Virus record (IMG/VR): IMGVR_UViG_3300042507_001316
Coordinates: 1 to 22,377 of that record
Length of the DNA: 22,377 nucleotides
Direction: 5' to 3' (one strand)
Source of the DNA: a virus
Both the position numbers and the translations under genes were made by a program. Positions within the stretch are counted from its first letter, which is position 1; each line of letters begins with the position of its first letter. Shown here piece after piece: positions 2,091 to 8,819 of this stretch. Below the pieces are notes generated by a model. It saw only the letters and a program-made list of their open reading frames with translations. It did not search any database and was not told where the DNA came from.

Positions 2091-2142
2091 CCCCCTTGTT
2101 CAAATCAGAAACCTAGGAAATTATGAACACACAGCAAGGGGG
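2091..2142 (+). other. Long-range hairpin CCCCCTTG / CAAGGGGG
   Basis: CCCCCTTG at 2091-2098 pairs perfectly with CAAGGGGG at 2135-2142. A second inner helix, TTCA at 2099-2102 with TGAA at 2123-2126, continues the stem after an asymmetric CACACAG-type bulge. The stem ends five bases before the tRNA-like element, so the two may stack in one RNA. No protein-coding reading is supported here. Confidence 0.5.
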
Positions 2143-2146
2143 TTTA

Positions 2147-2254
2147 TAGTCAGGTGGCAGAATGGTAATGCACACACAGCGAGTCGATGTACACGACAAC
2201 CATAAACAGAGTTGTGTGGTGGTATAAATAGGGGTTCGAGTCCTCTCCTGACTA
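2147..2254 (+). ncRNA. tRNA-like structure with an expanded anticodon arm
   Basis: The ends and core are those of a tRNA. A perfect 7-bp acceptor stem is present (AGTCAGG 2148-2154 with CCTGACT 2247-2253, extendable by T2147-A2254). T and G occupy positions 8-9. The D arm is GCA/TGC with the loop GAATGGTAA. A canonical T arm has stem AGGGG/CCTCT and loop TTCGAGT (2235-2241). The middle is abnormal: instead of a 5-bp stem and 7-base loop there is an 8-bp helix CACACAGC/GTTGTGTG (2173-2180, 2211-2218; one G-T pair). It encloses 30 bases, including a small hairpin GTCG-ATGTACA-CGAC whose 7-base loop would present GTA (Tyr) after a T. The element is about 107 bases, well above a normal tRNA, and CCA is not encoded. 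It may be a decayed tRNA, a tRNA with an inserted helix, or a tRNA-mimicking RNA. Confidence 0.55.
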
Positions 2255-2339
2255 CGAAAGCAGTTCGAATCTGCAAATCCATATAGTACAGAAGAGTCGA
2301 TACTTCTATCAGCCTTCGAGGTGCAAAAGGTGTCCATTG
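2255..2339 (+). other. Structured spacer with a second T-arm-like hairpin
   Basis: GCAG-TTCGAAT-CTGC at 2260-2274 is a 4-bp stem with a perfect T-loop sequence, only six bases after the tRNA-like element. It lacks a matching acceptor or D arm. AGAAG/CTTCT (2290-2294, 2303-2307) forms another hairpin, with loop AGTCGATA. The octamer GAGTCGAT occurs both here (2294-2302 region) and inside the tRNA-like element (2181-2188). No ORF is supported. Confidence 0.4.
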
Positions 2340-2397
2340 GGGGAGTACTTTGTATGGTAACAGATGAGGGGGAGCACATGACTCCCCTTTGTCATGT
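2340..2397 (+). promoter_or_regulatory. Two mutually exclusive hairpins (attenuator-like)
   Basis: GGGGAG at 2369-2374 can pair with CTCCCC at 2382-2387 (7-base loop). An upstream copy, GGGGAGT at 2340-2346, can pair equally well with ACTCCCC at 2381-2387. Alternatively ACATGAC at 2376-2382 pairs with GTCATGT at 2391-2397 around TCCCCTTT. The last fold and either of the first two cannot coexist. The arrangement sits 26 bases before the GTG of the next gene, as a leader switch would. There is no strong T run, so classic termination is doubtful; control of translation is possible. Confidence 0.4.
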
Positions 2398-7357: not shown

Positions 7358-8572
7358 ATGGAAAACAATTTAACACCTGAGCAAGTTGTTGAAAAAATCA
7401 ACGGTTTGTTCTCTGAAAAAATGGCAACAGTTCCAACTAAGGATGAGGTTGCTCAATTAAAAAGCGAGCTTGACAACTTCAAGTCTATCGAAGTTAAGAA
7501 CTCTGAAATGGAGAAAGCTATTGCAAAAATGGAAGGTCGTATTGAGGCAATGTCTGAGAAGGCAGTTGATGCACCAAAAGCAAAAGGAGCTAAAACATTG
7601 AAAGAGGCATTAGTAAAAACTTATTCTGACAATGTTAAGGCTATCACTGACTCAATTGAGAAAGGTAACAGAATTACATTAGATGTTAAGACTGACACTA
7701 CAATTGATGGAGATTACTCTGGTAATGTTGCATTGAGCGTATTGGAGCCAGGAGTAAACAGAATTGCACGTCCTATTCGTAGAATACGTGAGATCTCTAA
7801 CGTTGGAACAACTACATCAAAATTCGTTACTTACATCCAACAAACAAAACAAGTTGCTCCAGGAGCTGAAGAGACTCTATGGGTTAACGAGGCTGGTGCG
7901 AAATTTAACGGTGAGGTTAAATACGAAGAGGTATCTGAGGAAGTTAAGAAAATTGCTGCTTACATCAAAGTTTCAAAAGAGATGTTGGCTGACTTATCAT
8001 TCGTTAGATCTGAAATCAACACTGAATTGATGGAAGCTATCGAGCAAAACATTGATTTTTCATTAGTAAATGGTAACGGTGGTGTTGACTTAAATGGTTT
8101 ATTATCTGTTGCACCGGCATTCTCTGCAGGCACATTCGCAGGTACTATCCCAGGAGCAAACATTTCTGACTTAATCAGAGTTGCTAAGGCTCAGATTCAA
8201 GCTGCTAATTTTCAACCTACTCACGTAGTATTAAACCCAGAGGATGTTGCTAAAATTGAGTTGACTAAAACATCATCTGGTGAGTACACTTATCCAGCGT
8301 TTTGGGATGCTAACATGATGTTGGCTGGTTTGACTATCGTATCTTCAAACAACATCACTGCAGGTACTTTGGTTGTTGGTGATTTCACTAAATTCAACAT
8401 CAAGTTCAGAGAGGACATGAATATGTCAGTAGGATACGAAAATGATGACTTCACTCGTAACATGGTTACTATCTTATGTGAGGCTCGTTTGGTAGCTTAC
8501 ATCAAAGGTAATGATGTTAATGCGTTTGTTCAATCAGATATCGCAACAGATATAGCTCTAATCAACGACTAA
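7358..8572 (+). CDS. Major capsid protein (HK97 fold)
   Basis: The 404-residue product is a typical HK97-fold capsid protein. Its first ~75 residues are a charged coiled coil (VEKINGLFSEKMATVPTKDE and onward), corresponding to the delta/scaffold domain removed by the protease. Residues from about 110 show the shell: LSVLEPGVNRIARPIRRIRE, the E-loop-like stretch with WVNEAGAKFNGEVKYEEV, a spine-helix stretch KVSKEMLADLSFVRSEINTE, the P-domain THVVLNPEDVAKIEL and a C-terminal RNMVTILCEARLVAY. It follows the protease directly, and its codons look optimised compared with its neighbours, as expected of the most abundant virion protein. The leader AATTTAAAACAAAA is typical of strong SD-less starts in Bacteroidota. 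Confidence 0.95.
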   Translation: MENNLTPEQVVEKINGLFSEKMATVPTKDEVAQLKSELDNFKSIEVKNSEMEKAIAKMEGRIEAMSEKAVDAPKAKGAKTLKEALVKTYSDNVKAITDSIEKGNRITLDVKTDTTIDGDYSGNVALSVLEPGVNRIARPIRRIREISNVGTTTSKFVTYIQQTKQVAPGAEETLWVNEAGAKFNGEVKYEEVSEEVKKIAAYIKVSKEMLADLSFVRSEINTELMEAIEQNIDFSLVNGNGGVDLNGLLSVAPAFSAGTFAGTIPGANISDLIRVAKAQIQAANFQPTHVVLNPEDVAKIELTKTSSGEYTYPAFWDANMMLAGLTIVSSNNITAGTLVVGDFTKFNIKFREDMNMSVGYENDDFTRNMVTILCEARLVAYIKGNDVNAFVQSDIATDIALIND

Positions 8573-8585
8573 AATTTAATCCAAT

Positions 8586-8819
8586 ATGGAAAAGAAACCA
8601 CGCAAAAAGAAGATTGCTAATGTAGAACTTGAGAATAAGATTGAGGCACCACAAGTTGAGGCGGTTGAAACTGTTGAGGCTGTGAGCTTAGATCCATCCA
8701 AAGAGTACACATTCATTAGCAATGGCACCTTCCCTGGACTTGCAAAAGGTCAAGTGTGGAAGATGCTCGGTTTAAAAGCAGAAATTTTGGTAAAAAAAGG
8801 ATACGGTAAAATAAAATAA
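8586..8819 (+). CDS. Small capsid-region protein, function unknown
   Basis: A 77-residue protein just after the capsid gene. The first 12 residues are very basic (MEKKPRKKKIAN). The middle is acidic and repetitive (VEAVETVEAV). The last 40 residues form a small globular domain (EYTFISNGTFPGLAKGQVWK, then LKAEILVKKGYGKIK). This plan, an unstructured charged arm plus a compact C-terminal domain, recalls small head proteins or capsid accessory proteins encoded between capsid and connector genes, but I cannot name the family. It ends one base before the start of the connector gene. Confidence 0.6.
   Translation: MEKKPRKKKIANVELENKIEAPQVEAVETVEAVSLDPSKEYTFISNGTFPGLAKGQVWKMLGLKAEILVKKGYGKIK

Follow-up and report, generated by a model that had tools for sequence, protein, structure and literature searches.

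A phage-borne tRNA-Leu-like RNA that carries a hairpin with a self-complementary loop in place of the anticodon arm

The window, i.e. the complete 22,377-nt stretch of IMG/VR virus record IMGVR_UViG_3300042507_001316 that was analysed, contains a tRNA-like RNA upstream of its terminase genes, with hairpins on both sides. In the numbering used here A1 is position 2148, U-1 is 2147, A73 is 2254 and C74 is 2255. The features are as follows.

2091..2142, + strand: upstream hairpin CCCCCTTG/CAAGGGGG (fold -15.7 kcal/mol, z -1.74)
2148..2255, + strand: tRNA-like RNA, A1 to C74 (Rfam tRNA model and two covariance models built here)
2148..2154, + strand: acceptor stem, 5' strand AGTCAGG (double-sided changes in 7 of 7 pairs among homologues)
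2157..2171, + strand: D arm of tRNA-Leu type, GCAGAATGGTAATGC (Leu is the best isotype match by a wide margin)
2173..2180, + strand: helix in place of the anticodon stem, 5' strand CACACAGC (double-sided changes in 6 of 8 pairs)
2183..2197, + strand: inner hairpin GTCG-ATGTACA-CGAC, stem 2183-2186/2194-2197 and loop 2187-2193 (double-sided changes in 3 of 4 pairs, 100% paired)
2188..2193, + strand: self-complementary loop TGTACA, proposed kissing-loop dimer contact (self-pairing tests on homologues)
2198..2210, + strand: unpaired linker AACCATAAACAGA, conserved in homologue alignments
2211..2218, + strand: middle helix, 3' strand GTTGTGTG (same 6 of 8 pairs)
2219..2229, + strand: single strand GTGGTATAAAT, last base U48, conserved in the homologue alignment, in part because two of the search patterns impose it
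2230..2246, + strand: T arm AGGGG-TTCGAGT-CCTCT (double-sided changes in 4 of 5 pairs)
2247..2255, + strand: acceptor 3' strand CCTGACT (2247-2253, pairing over 7 bp with 2148-2154), discriminator A73 and C74 (A73-C74 in 39 of 39 homologues)
2369..2387, + strand: terminator-like hairpin GGGGAG...CTCCCC followed by TTTGTC (surrounding 41 nt z -3.9)

The original prediction of a tRNA shell at this position with its anticodon arm replaced is borne out, all parts being present; it had not noticed that the loop is self-complementary, that the shell is of leucine type and that the family is large. The search with relaxed models that it proposed gave 40.9 bits for the Rfam tRNA model RF00005, above the cut-off of 29 bits, with permissive filters only. 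Standard annotation overlooks such elements: both default Rfam and ARAGORN skipped the window copy. The covariance models built here score it at 113.5 and 114.9 bits. Because the single-sequence fold energy is not unusual (z -0.38 in a shuffle test), the evidence is comparative. The 5-bp stem, 7-nt loop and U33 of a tRNA anticodon arm are replaced by an 8-bp helix and the inner hairpin, and no conserved U33 was detected across 39 homologues. An intron was rejected because, by inspection, no placement of exons around this helix yields a normal anticodon loop. Weak Rfam matches in the window, such as lysM-TM7 (E 0.047), were treated as chance.

The upstream hairpin closes 5 nt 5' of the tRNA-like RNA and contains a conserved inner ACCTAGGAA. 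Its version in the related phage L019 (CCCCCTCA../..TGAGGGGG) has z -3.3 with changed stem letters, and it is retained in three relatives that have no shell (L004, L005, L013). It probably belongs to the same precursor as the tRNA-like RNA. The terminator-like hairpin is also kept in relatives; a consensus terminator scan did not flag it. A search near the element found no sigma-70-type promoter, a type from which Bacteroidota promoters differ. An isolated T-arm-like hairpin, GCAG-TTCGAAT-CTGC, lies just 3' of the element at 2260-2274 and is absent in L009.

Comparison of the same intergenic site in phages with 90-96% identical terminase revealed the window core in L009, L014 and L015, the shell with another middle in L006-L008, L010 and L011, a third middle in L019 and L020, a collapsed shell in L028, and no shell in L004, L005 and L013, where the flanking hairpins remain. 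The middle of L006 recurs in the unrelated phage L228. A normal tRNA at this locus, of which the window copy would be a disrupted version, was considered in the original prediction and occurs at the site in none of the compared relatives. Since alleles are swapped or absent among close relatives, the element is a dispensable, exchangeable accessory. Homologues are found in varied contexts.

Homologues were collected by distant BLAST and three IMG/VR pattern scans (41, 51 and 27 contigs). The BLAST search returned one annotated phage, MW202828.1 (60.9 kb, Manatee Spring), with 77% identity over 110 bases. Parsing gave 39 distinct homologues, every one with 7 of 7 acceptor pairs. Two patterns prescribe both the T arm and the GTGGTATAAAT strand, and the third prescribes the 5' half as far as the 5' strand of the middle helix; the tests on the inner hairpin and its loop are unbiased by this collection because no pattern constrains them. 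A covariance model from a MAFFT alignment recovers the same five helices; the inner hairpin was then shifted outward by one pair and the sequences were realigned.

In the 39 homologues, which are related sequences, standard pairs occupy 99.1% of 1053 pair cells, compared to 89.1% after shuffling and 31-44% with slid partners; the alignment was fitted to the modelled structure, a concern that the slid controls, where no signal appears, answer only in part. Double-sided changes occur in 21 of 27 pairs, and none of 500 shuffles reached the observed values. The compensatory changes are discernible by eye in the raw sequences, and the acceptor variants AGTGCAG, ACTTAGG, AACAGAG and GGAGAGA are all compensated. 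For the middle helix, where the original prediction proposed a test for covariation, six of the eight pairs show double-sided changes. The lack of compensation in acceptor and T stems that it named as counter-evidence was not encountered, since all seven acceptor pairs and four of the five T-stem pairs changed on both sides. Covariation of the acceptor, D and T arms together with the middle helix supports its proposal that selection maintains the ends of the tRNA although normal decoding is absent. At the level of sequence comparison, this establishes the element as a conserved, covarying, non-decoding tRNA-Leu-like RNA.

The loop of the inner hairpin is 7-8 nt long and, in nearly every member, self-complementary over its final six bases. 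The 6-mers include TGTACA, CTGCAG, CTCGAG, TAGCTA, AGTACT and CACGTG, as well as CTGCGG, CGTGCG and GTGCAT, which use wobble pairs; other loops keep a four-base self-complementary core (GGCC, TGCA). Full self-complementarity was counted in 31 of 39 loops against 5.2 expected (0 of 20000 shuffles) by an automatic parse that misread the 8-nt loops of L256 and L257, which by eye end in the self-complementary 6-mers GUGCAU (with wobble) and CACGUG. In the alignment the three loop self-pairs are standard in 93.2% of cells versus 51.9% after shuffling (0 of 500), with 54 double-changed cells, which are counts of sequences and not of events. The loop cores comprise eight different tetramers, and therefore at least seven changes took place. 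The two central, adjacent loop bases form a standard pair in 38 of 39 homologues, which points to a loop-loop contact between two copies because adjacent bases cannot pair within one molecule. Tolerance of G-U wobbles suggests a symmetry of RNA rather than DNA. Among 145 other shells no excess of palindromic loops was found (11 versus 11.9 expected), so the self-complementarity is a property of the window core. The signature of a kissing-loop dimer, a conserved self-complementary loop with compensatory change, is thereby present in the sequences, and it strongly suggests that the window RNA forms a homodimer through its 6-nt loop.

The shell is of the leucine type. Over 27 nt the generic shell has, in its D region, exactly the sequence of a tRNA-Leu(CAG) of E. 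coli type, and Leu is by far the closest isotype among the ordinary tRNAs of the same phage contigs. The set A14, A15-U48 and A73 is found in 27 of 31 Leu, 11 of 12 Gln and 14 of 23 Arg tRNAs of phages, and in none of the phage Ser, Phe, Gly, Asp, Thr and Trp tRNAs; tRNA-Gln and tRNA-Arg need anticodon contacts. In the element U8, A14, A15, U48, A73 and C74 are invariant in 39 of 39 homologues, G18G19-N-A20a is present in all of them, and the acceptor opens with A1-U72. LeuRS of E. coli recognizes A73, the A15-U48 pair, G18G19, A20a and the contacts between D and T loops, the anticodon and variable arm lie outside this set, and variants of E. coli tRNA-Leu that lack the anticodon arm and the long variable arm are still charged (PMC9976931). 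The complete determinant set occurs in all 39 homologues, and an 11-nt single strand (2219-2229) is found where tRNA-Leu would have its long variable arm; a Leu anticodon is missing as well. Because the determinants read by LeuRS are kept and the parts that it ignores are replaced, these data suggest that the element is leucylated by host LeuRS, a prediction that we consider somewhat probable and that uses rules from E. coli, not Bacteroidota.

The ends are also those of a tRNA. RNase P prefers U at position -1, and the U that precedes A1 in 144 of 170 shells fits cleavage by this enzyme. Use by RNase P, the CCA-adding enzyme and a synthetase, as envisaged in the original prediction, is consistent with this U-1, with A73-C74 in all 39 homologues and with the LeuRS determinants. 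Processing of the element by RNase P and the tRNA 3'-end enzymes is suggested and appears quite likely.

The window core belongs to a broader family with the shell AGTCAGG-TGGCGGAAT(T)GGTA(GA)CGC ... ACAGGTTCGAATCCTGTCCTGACT-AC, which also encloses over 140 other middles, 20-141 nt in length; a scan with one shell pattern gave at least 120 contigs, and more than 180 distinct shells are present overall among the matches listed. Clustering of 184 elements produced 121 singletons, most other middles being mutually unrelated, and the window core is the largest cluster in part because it was searched for. A single phage genome can hold up to 14 shells. Arrays of shells with mostly unrelated middles are present in L089, L122, L130, L135, L228, L230 and others. 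The other middles tend only slightly towards a common fold (closing helix in 52% versus 45%; mean MFE z -0.73). Among 84,980 cellular genomes the shell matches in 8 contigs only, mostly of Bacteroidota MAGs and several with phage genes nearby, which argues that the shell is phage-borne. The carriers are freshwater phages that probably have Bacteroidota hosts, and the DUF3127 protein in the window points to the same hosts. The shell is a general carrier for many different RNA cores, of which the window core is one conserved version.

Several further elements were observed in these contigs. L228 has two shells with an identical middle about 530 bases apart (7991-8077 and 8524-8610). In L155:13030-13101 (reverse strand) the acceptor AGTCAGG belongs to a shell with an ordinary anticodon arm and a Lys-like loop, CTTTTAA, so the shell acceptor is also possible on a regular-looking tRNA. 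Members of the window subtype in L102:3150-3288, L103:168-295 and L257:1315-1447 have an extra D-loop insert of about 20-35 nt. After the MW202828 homologue a second tRNA-like stretch (L002:632-700) contains hairpins that resemble acceptor, D and T arms and seems to lack an anticodon arm. A phage-encoded tmRNA (L107:3181-3529, Rfam 91.9 bits) lies directly upstream of several shells. A recurring hairpin GCTC-GGAAAGAC-GAGC (or with a GGAAAGAC-like loop), often shortly 5' of the next shell, occurs at L107:3696-3711, L228:9170-9187, L228:11337-11353 and in L091 downstream of 4087; it is possibly another conserved RNA.

Several other explanations can be considered. The shell could act as tRNA punctuation, a processing signal excised between phage genes, with a middle that is free to drift. 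This would account for the frequent location of shells between small genes (L228), their tRNA-like ends and the 121 singletons among 184 middles. However, the middle of the window subtype is conserved and covarying, and processing alone would retain neither the LeuRS set nor the self-complementary loop, which leaves this explanation rather unlikely. If the ends of the shell were instead recombination or transposition ends, the family would spread as a DNA cassette, in line with the swapping, presence and absence of alleles at one locus between phages with 90-96% identical terminase, the recurrence of the L006 middle in the unrelated phage L228, and the finding of one and the same core in a wide range of contigs. 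The swapping is also explained by ordinary recombination within shells that are repeated, and since acceptor changes are compensated, the elbow letters of the D and T loops persist and the loop accepts G-U, selection acts on the RNA; we regard such a cassette as improbable. Neither punctuation nor mobility at the DNA level accounts for the conserved core and loop.

The loop palindrome itself could be a DNA site for a dimeric protein, as the 6-mers are palindromic as DNA in most members, but CTGCGG, CGTGCG and the L256 loop pair with themselves only by way of G-U wobble and form no DNA palindrome, a covarying RNA hairpin holds the loop, and the letters of the palindrome vary widely; such a site likewise seems improbable. 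The Rfam tRNA match and the reading of ATGTACA as U33-GUA would allow a functional tRNA that decodes by way of an unusual anticodon arm, and the original prediction mentioned a tRNA-Tyr with GTA on a long arm. This is contradicted by the homologues, which have UGC, GGC, UCG, AGC and other triplets there and conserve neither U33 nor purine 37, and the extra 8-bp helix separates the shell from the hairpin, so that a decoding function is very improbable. A decayed or disrupted tRNA gene devoid of function would explain the unremarkable single-sequence folding and the collapsed shell in some relatives (L028), but its probability is negligible given 7 of 7 acceptor pairs in all 39 homologues and compensatory change throughout. 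With no anticodon loop conserved, a role as decoy for anticodon nucleases seems unlikely.

On balance we favour a small phage RNA with a non-decoding tRNA-Leu-like shell that dimerises, is processed by the host and can probably be charged with leucine. A kissing contact between their 6-nt loops would join two copies into a homodimer, host RNase P and the enzymes for tRNA 3' ends would trim the RNA and add CCA, and host LeuRS would charge it with leucine. The stable, possibly leucylated two-headed product could engage LeuRS, EF-Tu or another protein that binds the tRNA elbow; it would stay out of decoding and serve during infection either as a decoy or, alternatively, as a non-ribosomal leucine carrier. 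We infer these four steps with support that falls in this order, the last one being the weakest. That the phage gains from a leucine carrier, or from an RNA that diverts LeuRS or EF-Tu as decoy or sink, is weakly indicated and doubtful. Tentatively, the family could represent a new class of RNA in which leucine-chargeable shells bear interchangeable modules where the anticodon arm would be, occur in many versions per phage and move between phages, and in which the window homodimer presents two charged heads to host factors, with LeuRS, EF-Tu and a tRNA-dependent defence or transferase as possible targets.

If true, phages would use the only tRNA parts that processing and leucine charging require as a chassis for other RNA functions on a large scale, which would lengthen the brief roster of tRNA-like RNAs in nature, provide a natural counterpart of the tRNA scaffold of RNA engineering, and allow direct tests of how phages benefit from non-decoding charged tRNA mimics. 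No published description of the element was found in the open-access literature, although a subscription paper or preprint could exist, and the family is apparently a large undescribed set of phage RNAs.

Similarities to known systems are partial. The phi29 pRNA, which acts in the packaging motor, is likewise a small RNA of a phage and forms multimers through contacts between loops, but it has no tRNA shell. The GOLLD and ROOL phage RNAs are located near tRNAs and self-associate partly via kissing loops (PMC12286853); these are 600-900 nt long, without a tRNA shell, and their Rfam models gave no match in the window or in 13 related loci. Allo-tRNAs and other non-canonical tRNAs, which are classed by anticodon and altered acceptor and T-stem lengths (PMC7609411), share with the element a departure from the standard cloverleaf and their discovery in metagenomes, whereas its acceptor and T stems are standard and its anticodon arm is gone. 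Bacterial tRNA-Leu corresponds in the D arm, G18G19-N-A20a, A14, A15-U48, A73 and the T arm; the element differs by the absence of an anticodon arm and long variable arm, by the 8-bp helix and hairpin, and by A1-U72. Compared to tmRNA the element is much shorter and has an intact D arm, its U3-A70 is not the AlaRS determinant G3-U70 (37 of 39 homologues have U-A or U-G as third acceptor pair, and none has G-U), the 46-nt middle has space for at most a very short tag-peptide reading frame, and Rfam gives no tmRNA match in the window. What it has in common with tmRNA is a tRNA half that looks aminoacylatable and an anticodon replaced by another RNA domain.
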